DNA of 9,755 bases from Methanobacteriota archaeon. GTDB lineage: Archaea > Thermoplasmatota > Thermoplasmata > RBG-16-68-12. Where the stretch lies: contig VBME01000192.1 of NCBI GenBank assembly GCA_005878995.1, positions 1-9,755 of the forward strand, in the 5' to 3' direction. The notes beneath the pieces are model-generated. The model searched no databases. It saw nothing but the letters and a program-made list of their open reading frames with translations, and was not told the DNA's origin. Positions 2,203-9,218 of this stretch are shown piece after piece. A program made the translations under genes and the position numbers. How positions within the stretch are numbered: the stretch's first letter is position 1; every line of letters begins with the position of its first letter.

Positions 2203-3161
2203 ATGGGTATGGGACTTCTTCGTTGGCTCCTCTGGCCCCGCCGCGCCAAAGACACAGATGAGGAGGCACCGCGCCGACGGCGCACGGGAAAGCCCCGGAG
2301 CCGATCCCACCAACCGGGCGTCTACCGGATCGAGGTCGATAACGAGGCGGGTCGGTTTCACGGGGACGGGCCGCCGTTCTCGTTCTGGTCATCGTCCCGT
2401 GTGATCCTGATCCTCTCCTTCCTCCTTTGGTGGATCCAGCCCGCCGGACCGATGATTGCGGGATACGTCGGCGGCCGCCGCGCGGGCTCTCCGATCAAGG
2501 CCGTCATCGCCGCGCTCATGCCTGTGTTTGCGATTTACATTGCGAACGCGGCATACGCCCACAACTTTGCAGCCCACCAGATCGACTTCGTCGCCTCCCT
2601 GCCCGCTGTGGTCAGCGACGGGGTTTCGAGCATCCTTCCGTTCCTCATTCCCTACAAGGAGTTCATGGTGTCGTACATGAAGGGCTTCGTCGAGGCCCTG
2701 ACGACCACGTTCGGAATGGGGACGAACGGATACCTGATGGTCGTCATCTTCGCGTACATCGGCGGGCTCATCGCGGAACAGACCCGCCGCGAGCTCGTGT
2801 ACCGCTCCGGGTCCGGGGCTTCGGTCGGTGTGAACCTCGTTCAGCCCCTCCTGGGAGCCCGACCCTACGTCGAGGAGGATGATGAGGCGTATGACGAGGA
2901 CGAGGACATCCCCCTGAGCCGGAGGACGATGACGGCGAGGAGGTCGTGGTCTCGCGAACGCATCGCGTTCACTCGAGTGCCGCGGAGGAGAGGCACGAAC
3001 ACCGCCGCGCGACGCGCGCGCGGGCCGAAGACGACGAGGACGAGGACTCTCGTGGACCGCCGCCCCCACATGCGACGCACGTCCGCAGCCAAGCGGAGGA
3101 ACGCGCGATCCAACGATTCGTCGAACGGGCCTTGCGGAATTACGATCATTCGAAGCTCTGA
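2203..3161 (+). CDS. Uncharacterised multi-TM membrane protein with acidic C-terminal tail; apparent frameshift near 2910-2914
   Basis: I do not recognise a named family. The N-terminus (about residues 1-65) is basic and soluble. Hydrophobic segments follow at about 67-92, 97-118, 130-150 and 175-192. The first contains AGPMIAGYVGGRRAGSPIKA, a glycine-rich turn loosely like small archaeal DUF5518-type membrane proteins (weak similarity by eye). After residue 221 comes an acidic run (VEEDDEAYDEDED). The literal frame then becomes an implausible Arg-rich tail that continues to 3198, through the tfs promoter. The -1 frame is open from 2895. It continues the acidic, low-complexity style and ends in RSQAEERAIQRFVERALRNY with a stop at 3159-3161, just before the tfs TATA box. 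One extra base in the C5 run at 2910-2914 joins the frames into a 319-residue protein. The ATG at 2209 is an alternative start. A true frameshift mutation or programmed slippage is not excluded. Confidence 0.65.
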
Positions 3162-3170
3162 GCGCGCAAT

Positions 3171-3180
3171 GTTTTTATCG
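3171..3180 (+). promoter_or_regulatory. TATA box of tfs
   Basis: GTTTTTATCG is centred about 35 nt before the tfs ATG (3210). This predicts a transcript with a leader of only a few bases, and no Shine-Dalgarno is visible, so translation is probably leaderless. The box also argues that the upstream gene ends at 3161 and not at 3198. Confidence 0.7.
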
Positions 3181-3209
3181 CACGCCCCCCTGGCCTGATT
3201 GTCTCCCCA

Positions 3210-3524
3210 ATGTTCTGTCCGAAATGCGGCTCGCTCCTGTTTCCAGAGAAGGGGAAGGTACACTGTAATTCGTGCGGGTACGAACGGTCCCTCTCCGGGA
3301 AGGACGCCACGATCACGAAGGTCGCGCGGCCCGGGAAGGAGAAGCCGTCGGAGACGCTCGTCCTCGACGAGATCACGGAGACGCTCCCGAAAACGCGCGT
3401 CGAATGTCCCAAGTGCGGACACTACGAGGCGTTCTGGGTGATGCGACAGACGCGCGCGGCGGACGAGCCGACGACGCGCATCTACCGCTGCGTGAAATGC
3501 CAGCACACGTGGCGCGAGTACTGA
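3210..3524 (+). CDS. tfs: Transcription factor S (TFIIS/RPB9-like transcript cleavage factor)
   Basis: The predicted protein has 104 residues, the normal length for archaeal TFS. The N-terminal zinc ribbon reads MFCPKCGSLL...CNSCGY (Cys 3, 6, 19 and 22). A linker leads to the C-terminal TFIIS-type zinc ribbon, ECPKCGHYEAFW ... RCVKCQHTWREY. The loop between its Cys pairs contains TRAADEPTTRIYRC. The Asp-Glu pair there is the acidic pair that TFS/TFIIS inserts into the RNA polymerase active site to stimulate cleavage of backtracked RNA. All eight zinc ligands and the acidic pair are present, so a functional cleavage factor is expected. It has its own TATA box and is followed after 24 nt by the pcna promoter, placing two information-processing genes side by side on the same strand. 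Confidence 0.97.
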   Translation: MFCPKCGSLLFPEKGKVHCNSCGYERSLSGKDATITKVARPGKEKPSETLVLDEITETLPKTRVECPKCGHYEAFWVMRQTRAADEPTTRIYRCVKCQHTWREY

Positions 3525-3545
3525 TCCCGGCGAGGCCGCCCGGGA
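3525..3545 (+). terminator. GC hairpin between tfs stop and pcna TATA box
   Basis: TCCCGG (3525-3530) pairs with CCGGGA (3540-3545) around a 9-nt loop, immediately after the tfs TGA and four bases before the pcna TATA element. It may separate the two transcription units. The T-rich TATA box that follows could itself act as the T-run. Confidence 0.4.
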
Positions 3546-3548
3546 ACC

Positions 3549-3557
3549 TTTATTATA
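3549..3557 (+). promoter_or_regulatory. TATA box of pcna
   Basis: TTTATTATA is the strongest AT patch around the gene. It is centred about 43 nt upstream of the TTG start at 3596. It predicts initiation near 3578-3582, leaving a short leader that still contains the GGAGG ribosome site. Confidence 0.7.
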
Positions 3558-3586
3558 GTTGACCGGATTTCGGAGGGAATTCTGGG

Positions 3587-3591
3587 GGAGG
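3587..3591 (+). promoter_or_regulatory. Shine-Dalgarno site that supports a TTG start for pcna
   Basis: GGAGG within a GGGGGAGGA run sits 4 nt before TTG 3596. There is no ATG or GTG in this frame at the expected N-terminus, while TTG gives the canonical PCNA opening MFEGKVKADVLK. The start is therefore TTG. Confidence 0.75.
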
Positions 3592-3595
3592 ACGG

Positions 3596-4336
3596 TTGTT
3601 CGAGGGGAAGGTCAAGGCCGATGTTCTCAAGGAGGTGGTCGACGTCGTTTCGACGCTCGTCGACGAAGCGAAGTTCAACGTCGGCAAGGATTCCGTCGTG
3701 GTGAAAGCGGTCGACCCGGCCCACGTCGCGATGGTCGACCTCAGCCTCGATCGGGGCGCGTTCGAGGCTTACAAGGCGGACGAAGGCGAGCTCGGGGTCG
3801 ACATGGACAAGATGAAGGAGATCCTGCGGCTCGCAAAGGCCGGAGAGACGATCGCGTTGCGACACGACGAGGACAAGAACCGGCTCGTGGTGACGGTCGG
3901 GAACACGACGCGTCGCATGGCCCTCGTGGACACGGCCGGGATGAGCGATCCGAAGGTGCCCAGCCTGAACCTGCCGGCGAAAGTGGTCGTCCGGACGGAT
4001 GAGCTCCGGCAGGCGATCCGCGCGTCGGAGAGCATCAGCGATCACATCGCCCTCAAAGCGTCTCCAGAAGGGTTCGAAATCGTCTCCGAAGGCGACACGG
4101 ACAATGTCTCGCACATGGTCCCAAAAGACCTGCTCGAGGAGCTCCAGGTCAAAGAAGCGGTCCGTTCCCTCTTCCCGCTCGACTACTTCTCGAACATGGT
4201 GAAGGCGATCAGCTCCGCGCCGAACGTGACCCTGTATCTCGGTTCCGACTATCCGGTGAAGCTGGAGTTCAAGATCGCCGGTGGCAAGGGCGAAGTGAAG
4301 TATCTCTTGGCACCCCGAATCGAGAGCGACGGATAG
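3596..4336 (+). CDS. pcn: DNA polymerase sliding clamp (PCNA)
   Basis: The predicted protein has 246 residues, the normal length for archaeal PCNA, starting at TTG. PCNA is a homotrimeric ring that encircles DNA and tethers polymerases, FEN1, ligase and other PIP-box proteins. The N-terminal domain starts FEGKVKADVLKEVVDVVSTL and includes SVVVKAVDPAHVAMVDLSLD. The interdomain connector region is near residues 115-130 (ALVDTAGMSDPKVPSLNLPA). The C-terminal domain has ALKASPEGFEIVSEGDTDNV, MVKAISSAPNVTLYLGSDYP and KYLLAPRIESDG. The LAP-[RK]-IE ending is the conserved strand next to the partner-binding pocket. The protein is complete and uninterrupted: there is no intein, although a homing-endonuclease gene begins 100 nt after its stop. 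It has its own TATA box and ribosome site. Confidence 0.98.
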   Translation: MFEGKVKADVLKEVVDVVSTLVDEAKFNVGKDSVVVKAVDPAHVAMVDLSLDRGAFEAYKADEGELGVDMDKMKEILRLAKAGETIALRHDEDKNRLVVTVGNTTRRMALVDTAGMSDPKVPSLNLPAKVVVRTDELRQAIRASESISDHIALKASPEGFEIVSEGDTDNVSHMVPKDLLEELQVKEAVRSLFPLDYFSNMVKAISSAPNVTLYLGSDYPVKLEFKIAGGKGEVKYLLAPRIESDG

Positions 4337-4385
4337 GCTTAGTACCAGTGAGAGCAGCGTACCGAGCGGTGGCCGCCAGAAGCCT
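4335..4385 (+). repeat. Foldable element overlapping the pcna stop (6-bp stem enclosing two small hairpins)
   Basis: AGGCTT (4335-4340, overlapping the TAG) pairs with AAGCCT (4380-4385). Inside, GTAC (4342-4345) can pair with GTAC (4359-4362), and GCGG (4366-4369) with CCGC (4373-4376) around a 3-nt loop. The whole is a compact three-way junction at the pcna 3' end. It may be a 3' processing or termination element. The inner stems are only 4 bp, so chance is possible. Confidence 0.35.
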
Positions 4386-4435
4386 GACTACATGTAATCG
4401 GCAGGGACAAGGTCCTGGACCGGCCTCGGCATCAT

Positions 4436-5455
4436 ATGCCTTTGGGAGAAACTCTCGCTTACCTTGCCGGCCTTGTGGACGGTGATGGTTATTTCAAGGT
4501 GAGTCGTGCCTACAGGACGCCCGGCACGGTTCACCCATACTATGCCACAACCGTCGGAGTGTCCCAACTCTGGCCAGGTGAAGCGGTGAGGGTGTTCGCG
4601 GCTACTTTTGGGGGCGTCGTCATGGACCCGAAAAAGATTTCGGTCGGACGATTGATGGCACGGTGCGAACTCCGTGGGTCCAAGGCGGAATCGGCCGCGA
4701 GGCGTCTCCTCCCTTTCCTCCAGTTGAAGAGGGAACAAGCCATTCTCCTCATCGAAATTGGACGACTGAGGCCGCGTCGCCGCCTGCGGGTCCGCGAACG
4801 CGGAGCCGCGTGCGTCCTGATGGAAGGGGTACGACAGGCGCTGCGGTCGTCTCACGATGGGACTCGCCCAACCGGGAAGCTGGTTTCATCGCGGCTCTCT
4901 TTGGAGGGTTACCAAGAACTGACTCCCGAACAACTTGGATGGACCCGAGAGCAGCTGCTCAGCTATCTCGCCGGTATCATAGACAGTGACGGAAATCTCA
5001 GGATCGAGAGGAAGAGAGTTAGAGGGATGATTGGCCCTCACTACCGGATCAACATCCGATGTGGACAAGTCCTACCATCCCGTGCCGTTGAGCTTCTCGC
5101 AAAGACCTTTGGCGGTCACGTCGGCCTCCGGAGGTCCCGTCGACCAAATTGCAGGGACTTGGCCACATGGAGCCTTTACGACAGGGCGGCTGAATCTGCG
5201 ATTCGGGCGCTCCTTCCCTATCTCGTGGTGAAGAAGACAGAAGCCCTTCATCTTCTCGAACTGCGCTGGATGAAGGCTCAAGGCAAGAACGGATTGACCG
5301 AGTGGGTGCACGCGAACCGATGGCAGGCCTCAGTAAGAATGCGAAAACGGTGCTATACATTCGAACAGATTGCCGAATTCGAACGGATTTTCCTCAGGGT
5401 TCAACACATGCACTCGCCCGACCGACGAAGTTTCACAACCACGAGCAACGACTAA
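4436..5455 (+). CDS. Free-standing double-motif LAGLIDADG homing endonuclease
   Basis: The predicted protein has 339 residues. It has two LAGLIDADG motifs, LAGLVDGDG at 10-18 and LAGIIDSDG at 178-186. Each retains the late Asp (D17, D185) that binds the catalytic metal in this family. The two halves are internally homologous. AATFGGVV...AARRLLPFLQLKREQA in the first half is echoed by AKTFGGHV...AIRALLPYLVVKKTEA in the second. This is the layout of a monomeric pseudo-dimeric enzyme that cuts a long asymmetric DNA site. No intein splicing blocks are visible. The flanking pcna is intact and no split RNA gene is evident, so it looks free-standing. Codon choice looks more mixed and AT-tolerant than in neighbouring genes (judged by eye), consistent with transfer. 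No convincing ribosome site precedes the ATG. It converges on the srp54 relic. A domesticated, non-cutting role cannot be excluded. Confidence 0.85.
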   Translation: MPLGETLAYLAGLVDGDGYFKVSRAYRTPGTVHPYYATTVGVSQLWPGEAVRVFAATFGGVVMDPKKISVGRLMARCELRGSKAESAARRLLPFLQLKREQAILLIEIGRLRPRRRLRVRERGAACVLMEGVRQALRSSHDGTRPTGKLVSSRLSLEGYQELTPEQLGWTREQLLSYLAGIIDSDGNLRIERKRVRGMIGPHYRINIRCGQVLPSRAVELLAKTFGGHVGLRRSRRPNCRDLATWSLYDRAAESAIRALLPYLVVKKTEALHLLELRWMKAQGKNGLTEWVHANRWQASVRMRKRCYTFEQIAEFERIFLRVQHMHSPDRRSFTTTSND

Positions 5456-5471
5456 GCCTCGCGTGCCTCTC

Positions 5472-5526
5472 GGACTCCGACCGTGCACGGCAGACGCCGC
5501 TCTTCGAGCGTACTCGCTTGGAGTCT
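5472..5526 (+). repeat. Three-stem foldable element between the homing-endonuclease gene and the srp54 relic
   Basis: GGACTCC (5472-5478) pairs with GGAGTCT (5520-5526) over 7 bp with one G-U wobble. It encloses the 10-bp palindrome CCGTGCACGG (5481-5490) and the hairpin CGCTC-TTC-GAGCG (5498-5510). It has no tRNA T-loop or CCA-type end. It lies between two converging reading frames and may act as a two-way terminator or be a small RNA. No family is recognised. Confidence 0.4.
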
Positions 5527-5530
5527 CTAT

Positions 5531-5617
5531 TCATTCCTCGCCGACGTGCACTCCAGAAGCCTCGAGTTGCTGGAGCAGCTGTTTTCGCATTTTTCGGTTG
5601 CCGGCGAAGCCCTTGAT
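5531..5617 (-). pseudogene. Relic of the srp54 3' end (last 28 codons plus stop)
   Basis: Read on the minus strand this segment encodes a peptide whose first 23 residues are identical to residues 420-442 of the intact SRP54 in this window (start IKGFAGNRKM, end LEASGV). It ends HVGEE plus TGA where the intact protein ends DVDEG plus TGA. The alignment to 7875-7961 has no gaps. By my count 19 of 87 bases differ, in 18 codons, of which 15 are synonymous. Similarity stops abruptly at 5617: upstream codons no longer match the M domain, and no start codon or other SRP54 domain is present. It is therefore a broken fragment, not a gene. The mostly silent divergence means both copies spent a long time as parts of functional genes, so this is not a fresh local duplication. 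It probably marks the former 3' end of a resident or foreign srp54. Confidence 0.9.
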
Positions 5618-5629
5618 TGGCGAGAGCGC

Positions 5630-5657
5630 GTTAGCGCTTCTAGCGACGCACGCTAAC
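5630..5657. repeat. Perfect 7-bp inverted repeat next to the srp54 relic boundary
   Basis: GTTAGCG (5630-5636) and CGCTAAC (5651-5657) are perfect inverted copies separated by 14 nt. They begin 13 nt beyond the point where srp54 similarity ends. This could be a terminator, or a binding-site pair left by whatever joined the two sequences. Confidence 0.45.
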
Positions 5658-5746
5658 TCTAGTCCACCGTGCCTACTCGTTGGTTCGCCTCATTCCAATC
5701 GTGAATCGACCAAGGCTGCGCATACCTTCCGGGGGTGATGGACAGC

Positions 5747-5763
5747 GACCTTGCCTGAAGGTC
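5747..5763 (-). terminator. Hairpin downstream of pit
   Basis: GACCTT (5747-5752) and AAGGTC (5758-5763) form a perfect 6-bp stem with a 5-nt loop, about 54 nt past the pit stop on the minus strand. No long T-run follows, so it may be a 3'-end stabiliser and not a terminator. Confidence 0.35.
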
Positions 5764-5805
5764 ACGAGAGTATGACGGTTGCTATCCTCGTCGAACGGTT
5801 TCCAG

Positions 5806-5828
5806 TTCGGAGGTCCTCAGACTCCGAA
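5806..5828 (-). terminator. 7-bp hairpin spanning the pit stop codon
   Basis: TTCGGAG (5806-5812) and CTCCGAA (5822-5828) are a perfect inverted repeat with a 9-nt loop. The loop contains the pit stop (5817-5819). In RNA it would fold at the end of the reading frame and may define the 3' end of the duf47-pit transcript. Confidence 0.4.
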
Positions 5829-7055
5829 TGCAAGCCGCAGTGCCGCGTAGGCGGCCATGCCGATTCCCGCCGACACGGGGATCGTGATGATCCACGCCCA
5901 GACGATTCGGCGCGCGACGCCCCACCGTACGGCTGACAGGCGCTTTGTCGCGCCAACTCCCATAATCGCCGAGGCGATTACATGGGTCGTGCTGACCGGA
6001 ATGCCGGCTAGGGCCGTGCTCGCAAGCGCGATACCGCCCGCGGTTTCTGCAGAGAAGCCCTGCCAGGGCCGAAGTGCCGTGACGCGCTGCGACATCGTCC
6101 GTACGATTCGCCAGCCACCAAACAACGTGCCGAGCGAGATGGAGGCGTGCGCCCCGAGGATGACCCAGAACGGCACATGGAATTCCCCCGACGGAGGTCC
6201 CCACGGCGGGTTGATCGCAGCGACGACGAGGATGAGGGTGATGATCCCCATGCCTTTTTGTGCGTCGTTCGTCCCGTGGGTCACGCTGTAGAAGAAGCTG
6301 GAGACGAGTTGCAAGCGCCTGAACTCGTGATTTACGCGGGTCGGCGTGAATCTCCGAAAGAGCCGGATCACGAGGAGGGCAAGTCCGAACGCAAATAGGA
6401 GCCCGACAAGCGGCGCGGCGACCATGTAGACGACGATCTGAACGAGGCCTTTCAATAGGATTCGAGCGAGGATGATGGCAGGGAAGAGACCTGAGACAAG
6501 ACCCGCTAGGATGACGATCCCGAGGGTCGGAGAGTCCTCCCGCGCGAGTCCCCAGAGGAGGACCGTGACCGCTCCCGCAGCGAATGCGATGAATGTCAGC
6601 TCGAGGAAGAGTAGCATGTTCCCAGCGCTGGGAAAGAGGATCGCTTGGACGCCTCCCGCCAGAATCGCAGACCCTACCAGACCCCCGATCAAAGCGTGGC
6701 TGCTCGAAGTCGGAAGGCCCCAAAACCATGTGAGGAGGTCCCACACGATAGCCCCGAGGACCCCTCCCATGATGATCGCCAGCGTATGCAGGAATTGCGC
6801 GTCGGAGGACGGGACGGAGCCGACGCCAAGCACGCTCGGGTCGATGATCCCTTTCCCGATCGTCTCCGCAATCGCGTTAGTAATGAAGGCCATCCCGACG
6901 AAGTTTCCGACTGCGGCTAGTCCGACCGCTTTCGTGGGCGTGAGGACTTTGGTGGCGACGACGGTAGCGATTGCGTTCGCGGCGTCGTGAAATCCATTGA
7001 AGAAATCGAACGAGAAGACAACGAGGATCGCGACCACAATGAGTTCTACAAACAC
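5817..7055 (-). CDS. pit: PiT-family inorganic phosphate permease
   Basis: The predicted protein has 412 residues. PiT permeases carry inorganic phosphate, or metal-phosphate, across the cytoplasmic membrane using a H+ or Na+ gradient. The family's inverted repeat is clear. The first signature is FDFFNGFHDAANAIATVVAT (about residues 16-35) and the second THGTNDAQKGMG (259-270). The matching serine-rich turns are PTSSSHALIGG (115-125) and PVSTTHVIASAIMG (353-366). About 10 hydrophobic segments are seen, with a basic cytoplasmic loop near 230-247 (RLFRRFTPTR). The start is GTG at 7055-7053; a modest purine-rich stretch (AGAGGCAGGG) precedes it. It lies 118 nt downstream of the DUF47 gene on the same strand, the standard pairing of PiT with a PhoU-like regulator. 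Both sit between the two copies of the srp54 3' end. Confidence 0.96.
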   Translation of the reverse strand: MFVELIVVAILVVFSFDFFNGFHDAANAIATVVATKVLTPTKAVGLAAVGNFVGMAFITNAIAETIGKGIIDPSVLGVGSVPSSDAQFLHTLAIIMGGVLGAIVWDLLTWFWGLPTSSSHALIGGLVGSAILAGGVQAILFPSAGNMLLFLELTFIAFAAGAVTVLLWGLAREDSPTLGIVILAGLVSGLFPAIILARILLKGLVQIVVYMVAAPLVGLLFAFGLALLVIRLFRRFTPTRVNHEFRRLQLVSSFFYSVTHGTNDAQKGMGIITLILVVAAINPPWGPPSGEFHVPFWVILGAHASISLGTLFGGWRIVRTMSQRVTALRPWQGFSAETAGGIALASTALAGIPVSTTHVIASAIMGVGATKRLSAVRWGVARRIVWAWIITIPVSAGIGMAAYAALRLAFGV

Positions 7056-7107
7056 AACCCTGCCTCTTCTCCCGAGCTCCGGCGCTGGCCAGCCACGCTC
7101 GGCGGCA

Positions 7108-7122
7108 CGGAGCGGTGCTCCG
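7108..7122 (-). promoter_or_regulatory. GC-rich hairpin in the gap between duf47 and pit
   Basis: CGGAGC (7108-7113) and GCTCCG (7117-7122) form a perfect 6-bp stem with a 3-nt loop. The palindrome GCTGGCCAGC lies nearby at 7084-7093. Both are in the 118-nt gap ahead of pit. They could tune the relative expression of the two genes through attenuation, processing or regulator binding. No phosphate-responsive archaeal motif that I know is evident. Confidence 0.35.
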
Positions 7123-7173
7123 CTGTATCGATCAGCCCGCCACGGTTTTCCATGAACGAGACCGGCGCATCCC

Positions 7174-7803
7174 TTACTGATTCTTCGCGACGATATCGCT
7201 CAGAACATTTGCGACATCCTCGCAGTAGTCGGTGGCCTGCTCGAGCCGCTCGATGATCTCCTTGAACTTGATGATGTGGACAGGATCCGCCTCCTTGAAA
7301 AGGTCCGCCACCGCATTGTTCATCAGATCGTCCGCGGCGTTCTCTAGCCGGTGCACCTCGATCGCGATGCGTTCGACTTCATCGCCCAGCTTTGTGTCGC
7401 GGATCATTCCGACGGCATCCTTCAGCAAGCGGGTCGCGTCGGCAATCACGTCTCCGAGCTGAATCATCGCCTCCGAGGGCCGTTCCACGCCGTAGAGATG
7501 AAGTCGGTTCGCTGCTGCATAGATCATATCGAGGACGTTGTCCAGGGAGCTTGCAAGTGACTGAATGTCCTCTCGATCGATCGGCGTGATAAAGGTCCGA
7601 TTCAGCGCCTCGAAGACGTTGTGGACGAGTTCGTCCCCCTTGTGTTCGATGTCCTTGATGTGTCGCCGCTTCGCAGGCACGTCCCGGAAGTCGCCTAACA
7701 GATCTTGGAGCGCAACTGCGCCTTCGTCGACCGTCGCCGCCACCTGAGCCAGTTGGTCGAAGAAATGCCGTTCCTGGGGAATGATCCACTCCTTCAACCC
7801 CAT
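7174..7803 (-). CDS. DUF47 / PhoU-like phosphate transport accessory protein
   Basis: The predicted protein has 209 residues, typical of the DUF47 (PhoU_div) family, and forms an all-alpha bundle. Two metal-site style motifs are visible: DIEHKGDELVHNVFEALN (about 51-68, E53...D57) and HRLENAADDL (151-160, E154...D158). Between them is the family stretch TFITPIDREDIQSLASSLDN (70-89). The C-terminal helix reads RLEQATDYCEDVANVLSDIV. DUF47 proteins usually adjoin PiT permeases and are thought to regulate phosphate uptake, as PhoU does for Pst; direct biochemical evidence is limited. Here it precedes pit on the minus strand. The ATG at 7803 has a GGAGG site (7812-7816) 8 nt upstream. A weak TATA-like patch is at about 7840-7847. 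Its start lies 71 nt beyond the srp54 stop. Confidence 0.94.
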   Translation of the reverse strand: MGLKEWIIPQERHFFDQLAQVAATVDEGAVALQDLLGDFRDVPAKRRHIKDIEHKGDELVHNVFEALNRTFITPIDREDIQSLASSLDNVLDMIYAAANRLHLYGVERPSEAMIQLGDVIADATRLLKDAVGMIRDTKLGDEVERIAIEVHRLENAADDLMNNAVADLFKEADPVHIIKFKEIIERLEQATDYCEDVANVLSDIVAKNQ

Positions 7804-7811
7804 CTTCCATG

Positions 7812-7816
7812 CCTCC
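7812..7816 (-). promoter_or_regulatory. Shine-Dalgarno site of the DUF47 gene
   Basis: On the minus strand GGAGG lies 8 nt before the ATG at 7803. It supports this start and shows that the gene does not rely on leaderless initiation, unlike tfs and probably srp54. Confidence 0.65.
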
Positions 7817-7874
7817 TGCGCCGCGGTAGCGGTGCATCCACATTAAGCTTCTCGTGCGCTCGAATGAACGCGGA

Positions 7875-9218
7875 TCAGCCTTCGTCGACGTCGACGCCGG
7901 AGGCCTCCAGCTGTTGAAGAAGCTGCTTTCGCATCTTTCGGTTTCCCGCGAATCCCTTGATCGCTTTCCGCGACATCTCGTAATTCCGCAAGAGTTCCTT
8001 TACGTCCCTCGGCGCGACCCCGGCGCCTCGGGCAATGCGTTGGACGCGGGAAGACTTCACCAGCTTCGGCTCCGTCATCTCCTTGTCCGTCATTGAGTCC
8101 ATGATGATCTTGAATCGACGGAGTCGCGCTTGCGTGCTCTCCATGTCCGAATCTTTCAGCTTCGCGCCGACGCCAGGAATCAACGAAGCCAGCTTGCGCA
8201 TCGGGCCCATGTCCGTCAGCATCTCGATCTGTTCGTACATCTCGTGGAGCGTGAACTTCCCCGCCATGATCTTTTTCGTGAGCGCCTCGGCCCTCTCCGC
8301 GTCGATCGCGTCTTGCGCCCGTTCGAGGAGAGTCTCCAAGTCACCCATTCCGAGGAGGCGGGAGATGAACCGAGGAGGCTCGAACTTCTCGAGGTCGTCG
8401 ATCTTCTCGCCGACCCCAATGAAGACGATGGGCGCCTTCACCTCCGCGACCGCGGAGAGGGCGCCGCCCCCTTTCGCGGTGCCATCGAGCTTTGTGACGA
8501 TGACCCCTGTGATTCCGACTGCGTCGTGGAACGCCTTCGCCTGGGGGCCGGCTTGCTGCCCGACCGTGGCGTCGATCACGAGGAACCGTTCGTCTGCTTC
8601 GACCGCCTTCGCGACGGCCTCGATTTCCGCGATCAGGTCTGGCTCGAGTGCGTGGCGGCCGGACGAGTCGACGACGACGACGTCGGTCTCCGCGAGTCCT
8701 TTCATGCCCGCCTTGGCGATCTTCACGGCGTCCTTCGCCCCCGAGTCACCGTAGAACGCCGCGTTGATCTGTTCGGACAGCTGCTTCAGTTGATCGTACG
8801 CGGCCGGCCGGTGCACGTCCGCCGCGACAAGGCCTACCGACAACCCTTTTTTCTGGAAGTATTTCGCGAGCTTCCCTGCCGTGGTCGTCTTGCCCTGGCC
8901 GTAGAGCCCGACGAGGAGGATCCGCTGTTTCTGAATCGGGACGTCCCGCGTCGACCCGAGGATTTTCACGAGTTCCTCGTAGATGATCCGAACGACGTGC
9001 TCGCGCGGGCTCATGCCCGCGGGCGGTTTTTCCTCCAAGGCGCGACGCTGGAGCTGCTTCGTAATGGCGAGCGCCAGCTGCACGTTCACGTCGGCCTGGA
9101 TCAGCGCACGCTGAATGTCGCGGACGATTTCTTTGATCAGGGATTCGTCCACGTAGCTCGCGCCCGCGATCTTGCGGAGGGCCGCGCGGAGAGAGTCCCC
9201 GAGCTTCTCAAGGACCAT
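7875..9218 (-). CDS. srp54: Signal recognition particle GTPase subunit SRP54
   Basis: The predicted protein has 447 residues, full length for archaeal SRP54. It binds 7S RNA and signal peptides and docks with FtsY to deliver nascent membrane and secreted proteins. The N domain (about 1-95) contains the helical ALIQADVNVQLA stretch. In the GTPase domain (about 96-295), G1 is GLYGQGKTTTAGKLA (104-118), the I-box region AADVHRPAAYDQL (132-144), G3 VDSSGRH (183-189), G4 TKLDGTAKGGGALS (242-255) and the closing loop FIGVGEKIDDLEKFEP (266-281). G1 and G3 deviate from the common GLQGSGKTTT and DTAGR. The M domain (about 318-447) has GKFTLHEMYEQIEML and the RNA-binding SSRVQRIARGAGV (389-401). Its last 28 codons are duplicated as a relic at 5531-5617, so this 3' end may be of foreign origin. 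A TATA-like box lies 26-32 nt upstream of the ATG. Confidence 0.98.
   Translation of the reverse strand: MVLEKLGDSLRAALRKIAGASYVDESLIKEIVRDIQRALIQADVNVQLALAITKQLQRRALEEKPPAGMSPREHVVRIIYEELVKILGSTRDVPIQKQRILLVGLYGQGKTTTAGKLAKYFQKKGLSVGLVAADVHRPAAYDQLKQLSEQINAAFYGDSGAKDAVKIAKAGMKGLAETDVVVVDSSGRHALEPDLIAEIEAVAKAVEADERFLVIDATVGQQAGPQAKAFHDAVGITGVIVTKLDGTAKGGGALSAVAEVKAPIVFIGVGEKIDDLEKFEPPRFISRLLGMGDLETLLERAQDAIDAERAEALTKKIMAGKFTLHEMYEQIEMLTDMGPMRKLASLIPGVGAKLKDSDMESTQARLRRFKIIMDSMTDKEMTEPKLVKSSRVQRIARGAGVAPRDVKELLRNYEMSRKAIKGFAGNRKMRKQLLQQLEASGVDVDEG

Follow-up and report, generated by a model that had tools for sequence, protein, structure and literature searches.

Free-standing homing endonuclease genes are known from phage T4, where the seg and mob genes lie between other genes, often have their target in a neighbouring gene and are accompanied by co-conversion of the flanks (PMC2988022). 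For T4 intron homing, the same source describes how events without homology on one of the flanks are repaired one-sidedly, with joints at microhomologies (PMC2988022). In fungal mitochondria, mobile open reading frames (ORFs) with foreign C-terminal duplications are presented for atp6, atp9, cox2 and nad3 of Glomus and for atp6 of Allomyces; there an endonuclease gene, mostly of the LAGLIDADG type, travels with a foreign gene end and the host gene becomes a hybrid (PMC3630166). Homology-facilitated illegitimate recombination (HFIR), proposed for type VI secretion system (T6SS) loci of Vibrio, has homology at one end and an illegitimate joint at the other, with an orphan 3' piece remaining (PMC5361080). 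Here we describe a locus with traits of all three in a 9,755-nucleotide stretch of a Thermoplasmata genome (contig VBME01000192.1, assembly GCA_005878995.1; "the window" denotes this whole analysed stretch). A LAGLIDADG endonuclease gene stands directly behind pcna, which encodes the sliding clamp, and is followed by an 87-base copy of the srp54 3' end (the relic), the phosphate-uptake genes pit and duf47, and an intact srp54. The best explanation, to which we assign a probability of roughly 0.65, is that the endonuclease gene homed in from a relative via the pcna 3' end, in a one-sided event with an illegitimate joint at the right.

The locus shares the general plan of the T4 genes, but according to that source the T4 enzymes are of the GIY-YIG and HNH types and cut hundreds to thousands of bases from their gene, whereas here the enzyme is of the LAGLIDADG type, resides on an archaeal chromosome, is accompanied by a second foreign gene tail and has a proposed site that adjoins its gene (PMC2988022). 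As in the fungal mobile ORFs, the invaded gene has a foreign 3' end, in frame, next to the endonuclease gene. Unlike in the fungal cases as presented, pcna is the hybrid gene here and has not retained the native end that was displaced, and the additional tail stems from another gene, srp54, which stays whole (PMC3630166). No second copies of pit, duf47 or pcna tails were found in 26 stretches, the window included (E-value 1 for the pcna tail), so also none behind the element. HFIR differs in that the account of it invokes no endonuclease (PMC5361080).

Comparison with the nearest genome (G001) sets the boundaries of the newcomer. G001 matches the window at positions 2200-2914, 2915-4329 and 5615-9218 with 96, 94 and 96% identity, and on its contig C134 just 25 bases separate the matches to 2915-4329 and 5615-9218. 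Its order is pcna-pit-duf47-srp54, and both the LAGLIDADG gene (4436-5455, plus strand) and the srp54 relic (5531-5617, minus strand) are absent. The segment missing from G001 (4306-5614) consists of a foreign pcna end, a leader between pcna and the endonuclease gene (4337-4435, plus strand), the endonuclease gene, a 75-base spacer from its stop to that of the relic (5456-5530) and the srp54 tail. Judging from these alignments, the newcomer extends from window position 4306 to about 5615, does not include the phosphate module and is flanked by two foreign gene tails, the pcna end and the srp54 end. Presence and absence at this one site are seen not only between the window and G001 but also within the genus, where carriers, remnants and empty sites occur.

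The pcna gene (3596-4336, plus strand; Pfam PCNA_N/C) is a hybrid, with host sequence up to about 4305 and a foreign part made up of codons 236-243 (4304-4327) and the end behind them. All eight of these codons differ from G001, all synonymously and with 0 of 8 residues changed, against 28 differing codons among the preceding 236 (Fisher p 1e-7); the 60 codons directly before the stretch differ from G001 at 2%. This is the pattern of flank co-conversion, although plain recombination would give the same look. On the right, the G001 match resumes between 5615 and ~5631, within ~16 bases of the relic edge. The bases GAT at 5615-5617 are common to the relic and the host DNA downstream of pit, and this 3-base overlap is probably an illegitimate joint.

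The relic holds the last 28 codons and the stop of srp54, without the remainder of the gene. As an initial annotation of this DNA had noticed, it recurs gap-free and in the same orientation at the end of the intact srp54 (7875-9218, minus strand): positions 5531-5617 and 7875-7961, both on the minus strand, are identical at 68 of 87 bases, while elsewhere in the window the 87-mer matches at 41 of 87 at best (mean 22.5, sd 4.5). The similarity extends no further than ~5617 and, at the opposite end, the stop codon. An automatic repeat finder missed the pair, in which the longest exact run is 8 bases (read by eye) against a 9-base seed. Sixteen of the 19 differences are at third codon positions, and 18 codons differ, yet only 3 residues do so, all within the last 5; in 20,000 draws, 19 random changes altered a mean of 12.2 residues and never fewer than 6. 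Since the differences are mostly silent, the relic diverged while it still belonged to a functional gene. Against G001, the working tail has 1 difference in 87 bases (srp54 body: 27 of 1257), and the relic differs from the host tail at 19 of 87, so the working tail is native and the relic is the foreign copy, which did not arise recently from the host's own gene. The initial annotation was right that one of the two tails is foreign, but had placed it on the working gene, a possibility ruled out by the single difference from G001.

Alignment of the relic to relatives' srp54 ends, which had also been proposed, gave 56-64 of 75 identical bases for the 13 closer tails of the host genus (mean 59.6), which share 58-74 of 75 among themselves (mean 63.4), and 54-58 of 75 for the tails of G004, G005 and G013; G016 was dropped by the search pattern. 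From these values the relic appears to stem from a slightly distant member of the genus. The stop of the intact endonuclease gene lies 75 bases from the relic, and the spacer between them is without the TTAATG motif found between srp54 and duf47 in many relatives (by eye) and has no long match in the 37 genomes of the order that were searched; relic and adjacent endonuclease gene belong together, a link that the initial annotation had not drawn. A metagenome ORF (P0003), identical at 330 of 333 residues, reads through the endonuclease, the relic and the joint, and the arrangement has therefore been assembled elsewhere too. Another metagenome ORF match (P0001) reads through most of the leader (by eye).

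The phosphate module lies outside the insertion. It consists of pit, a permease of the PHO4 family (5817-7055, minus strand; PF01384, E 7e-81), and duf47 (7174-7803, minus strand; PhoU_div, PF01865), both of them at the same place in relatives. The two genes stand between pcna and srp54, without the relic, in 14 genomes from three genera: on one contig in 10 of the 19 genomes of the genus (G001, G002, G003, G006, G007, G009, G012, G015, G016 and G019; pcna is cut by the contig end in G002 and G015), and likewise in two genomes from another genus of the family (G020 and G021) and two from another family (G026 and G030). In G012 the endonuclease gene separates pcna from pit, and in G009 a remnant of it does. 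Contigs end inside the block in G010, G017 and G018, which are consistent with it, and in G022 of the other genus; G004, G005, G011 and G013 carry or begin a different arrangement, and G008 and G014 are uninformative. The occurrence in 14 genomes makes pit-duf47 an old resident here. In family f3, all five genomes (G024, G029, G033, G035 and G037) have just 12 bases between the end of the pcna match and that of the srp54 match, and direct pcna/srp54 order is therefore a real state elsewhere in the order.

The product of the endonuclease gene has 339 amino acids and two LAGLIDADG repeats, with the motifs LVDGDG and IIDSDG. Its Pfam matches (LAGLIDADG_3/Hom_end) are just above cut-off, and among 26 aligned sequences, the window included, Hom_end matches 14 and LAGLIDADG_3 matches 12. 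A profile search against solved structures gave I-MsoI (E 2e-16), and the AlphaFold model (predicted local distance difference test score, pLDDT, 87) has as its best Foldseek match mMsoI, the monomerised I-MsoI (PDB 3fd2; E 8e-15). The LAGLIDADG fold is that of I-MsoI and I-CreI (PDB 3fd2, 1m5x), with two repeats in one chain as in 3fd2, at 16% identity to 3fd2 in the structural alignment. The natural I-MsoI and I-CreI enzymes are intron-encoded homodimers. The acidic residues of LAGLIDADG motifs have a known role, and the window enzyme has one in each repeat: across the 26 sequences D17 is at least 90% conserved and D185 is invariant. The gene is not inside an intron or intein, as pcna is complete before it begins and the window has no Rfam match at the gathering threshold. 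The ratio of nonsynonymous to synonymous divergence (dN/dS) between window and G012 is 0.18, from which it follows that the endonuclease has been under selection. We take the gene to encode a free-standing homing endonuclease whose target would be the pcna 3' end. The leader contains ACTACATGTA at 4387-4396, and a similar motif was seen by eye before the gene in G005, G012 and G004 and in the G019 remnant; it may be a promoter, a target or neither.

In the protein database, 110 proteins match the endonuclease at E 1e-3. A class-wide search of 400 genomes gave seven matches at E 1e-20, six of them directly behind pcna on the same strand (G004, G005, G009, G012, G027 and G031), so that with the window the family holds this position in 7 of 8 loci. 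The seventh match (G279) is a distant relative on a contig whose ORFs resemble methyltransferases by eye. There, at L113:2038-2661, a distant single-repeat LAGLIDADG ORF lies amid DNA methyltransferase-like ORFs, possibly of viral origin. G009 retains only the end of the gene and G031 only its start, G004 stops at a contig edge, and G019 has a decayed start of 19 codons (E 2e-5); G003 and G015 show traces that are no more than suggestive. Such remnants fit the cycle of invasion, decay and loss that a preprint, as far as its account goes, reports for genes of this kind (PMC13405050). None of 72,556 plasmid records matched, 27 relatives on viral contigs have 22-40% identity, none of them close, and a phylum search of 389 genomes gave 0 matches at E 1e-12 in a sample not shown to include a known carrier. 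Among the papers listed by literature searches for pcna-linked endonucleases in archaea, none looked relevant by title and the start of the abstract. Further distant LAGLIDADG matches (25-30% identity; L060-L074) occur elsewhere in 11 of the 19 genus genomes, and the host genus seems rich in such endonucleases.

The last eight pcna codons before the terminal residues always encode LLAPRIES in 11 genus genomes, the window included, and they differ at 0.69 per pair against an amino-acid-matched expectation of 0.38 from elsewhere in pcna. The excess is present in 52 of 55 pairs, and the stretch ranks first among 193 eight-codon windows over 200 codons. No such excess is seen at the srp54 tail (rank 266 of 393, or 124 of 393 when the cut is placed nine codons further upstream; G019 left out), and the tfs end ranks 13 of 83 (G015, G016 and G019 left out). 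Where the genomes used have no room for an endonuclease behind pcna, the values are 0.26 against 0.24 expected in f3 (7 of 10 pairs above) and 0.25 against 0.47 in f2 (none of 3 pairs above, from 3 of the 5 genomes). In f6, where the endonuclease is present, the value is 0.88 against 0.54 (1 pair). Five of six near pairs without shared members are raised (window/G001, G012/G009, G003/G006, G016/G019 and G020/G021). The recoding fits a target of homing-site length in the pcna end, without proving one.

We propose that the free-standing LAGLIDADG gene entered the locus from a relative, most likely after its enzyme had cut the pcna 3' end. Repair would have copied donor DNA from inside pcna by homology, so that the last pcna codons were co-converted while pcna remained whole, and copying would have continued through the endonuclease gene into the donor srp54 tail, directly behind the endonuclease in the donor. 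The recipient would have had pit-duf47 in place of srp54, leaving the right end without a matching partner; it would have been joined at the 3-base overlap downstream of pit, with the 87-base srp54 tail as the footprint. The simplest source would be a relative in which pcna, the endonuclease gene and srp54 are immediate neighbours. In this the initial annotation, which had pcna plus the endonuclease gene converging on srp54 as the ancestral order of the window, may have named the donor order, while the window itself would derive from pcna-pit-duf47-srp54. Its suggestion of recombination running into a conserved gene holds.

Several observations weigh against this proposal. The order pcna-endonuclease-srp54 is absent from all loci examined, and a search with spacer plus relic in 37 genomes of the order matched only native srp54 tails beyond ~45 bases. 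The relic is slightly farther from the genus than its members are from one another. The 3-base overlap is weak and can be chance, and the polarity of the insertion depends on a single close relative. Synonymous divergence (dS) of the endonuclease gene between window and G012 is 0.74, inside the range of pcna, tfs and srp54 (0.70-0.94), so that an old presence with losses is possible. Recoding of the pcna end is raised in two groups in which the endonuclease was not found, g2 (0.58 against 0.24, 3 pairs) and f5 (0.88 against 0.21, 1 pair), and is absent from the pair G007/G015 (0.12 against 0.18); the pairs are, moreover, non-independent.

The main rival is that the same foreign segment arrived by HFIR, with uptake anchored in pcna and the endonuclease as a passenger. 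The footprint is identical to that of the events proposed for Vibrio (PMC5361080), other parts of the interval have also been exchanged, and the recoding in g2 and f5 goes without an endonuclease. However, HFIR leaves three things unexplained, namely the family position behind pcna, the recoding at the pcna end rather than the srp54 end, and purifying selection on the endonuclease gene, and we consider it unlikely, at around one chance in five. Less probable still is that endonuclease and relic predate the split of window and G001 and that G001 lost both by conversion to an empty allele. The dS of the endonuclease resembles that of the neighbouring genes, and the remnants in the genus show that decay and loss happen, but the G001 match starts within ~16 bases of the relic edge, and for such a loss G001 would have to have both a foreign pcna end and an independent breakpoint close to the same position.

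The initial annotation had proposed that the phosphate module entered srp54 with a replacement tail and left the displaced tail behind, an idea that follows from the order of parts in the window alone. It had named pit and duf47 as the only intact genes between the copies; they are the long ORFs of that interval, and each matches a known family in a Pfam scan that covered 8 window ORFs, one further ORF and part of one (of 61 listed, many overlapping these) but not the shorter overlapping ORFs of the interval. As it had reported, no integrase gene was found among the scanned ORFs; nor did a search for tRNA, tmRNA and Rfam features as an integration target give any in the window. The empty site of such an element should lack the DNA between the copies. 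The synteny comparison gave the opposite, with pit-duf47 in 10 genus, 2 other-genus and 2 other-family genomes, all free of the relic, and with only endonuclease and relic missing from G001; the refutation that the initial annotation had itself set out has thereby come about. Together with the native working tail, this makes insertion of the module very improbable. We give a comparably low weight to an assembly artefact, as P0003 spans endonuclease, relic and joint with 3 differences in 333 residues, and the least weight of all to a decayed tandem copy of the host's own srp54, which would share the protein tail but does not agree with mostly silent differences and a divergence of 19 of 87 against 1 of 87 for the native tail of window and G001. 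Own-copy decay was ruled out by the substitution pattern.

The earlier suggestion that phosphate genes move at this locus holds for exchange of the module, though not for the event that left the relic. For the window against G012, dS reaches 1.22 in pit and 1.64 in duf47, compared with 0.70 in pcna, 0.81 in tfs and 0.94 in srp54. The pcna plus srp54 tree unites G016 and G019 (98/99) and the module tree does not (approximately unbiased test, AU, p 0.036), while window, G001 and G019 come together with weak support in the module tree (65/22), a grouping that the flanks reject (p 0.0007). The module shows signs of repeated in-situ replacement, before the window/G001 split and separate from the relic. 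A different module occupies the interval in G005, G013, G023 and G027, with a two-domain permease, two ATPases and DUF47 proteins (Pfam on four G013 proteins and the G023 and G027 permeases, the remainder by eye). A more speculative idea, which as a whole we hold to be rather doubtful, is that the recognition site of the endonuclease is the final ~24 bases of conserved pcna sequence (LLAPRIES), which no host could do without; silent recoding would be the way of escape for hosts and carriers and would account for the top rank of this stretch among the 193 windows, and each cut would drag neighbouring DNA along, so that the enzyme would drive repeated exchange of modules (Pit plus DUF47, ABC plus DUF47, or nothing) between pcna and srp54.

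The window presents apparent intronless homing on an archaeal chromosome: a near relative has the empty site, the ends of two genes are foreign, and the joint can be read. It also points to a stretch of 24 bases within a conserved replication gene as the probable target. This makes it testable whether silent recoding of a conserved gene can be forced by a selfish endonuclease, and whether such an enzyme can drive exchange of neighbouring metabolic genes. The case further cautions that repeats of gene ends do not necessarily signal an integrase-type element.

At L138:1338-6579, L110:8213-13426, L055:1357-6278 and L117:9980-15105, pit is replaced by an ATP-binding cassette (ABC) module, which comprises a two-domain permease of the binding-protein-dependent (BPD) type, two ABC ATPases and one or two DUF47 genes; no binding-protein gene was noticed in it, and it is possibly another phosphate uptake system. 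The pit genes of G020 (L049:6213-7145) and G030 (L116:5818-6762) are of a shorter, distant type, ~43-54% identical to the window pit in pieces, while G021 and G026, from the same genera, have a window-type pit (~73%) at the same place. The membrane protein encoded at window positions 2203-3198 has no Pfam match for the full ORF or its first 246 residues; its last third is of low complexity and varies among relatives, and G001 matches it in two pieces.

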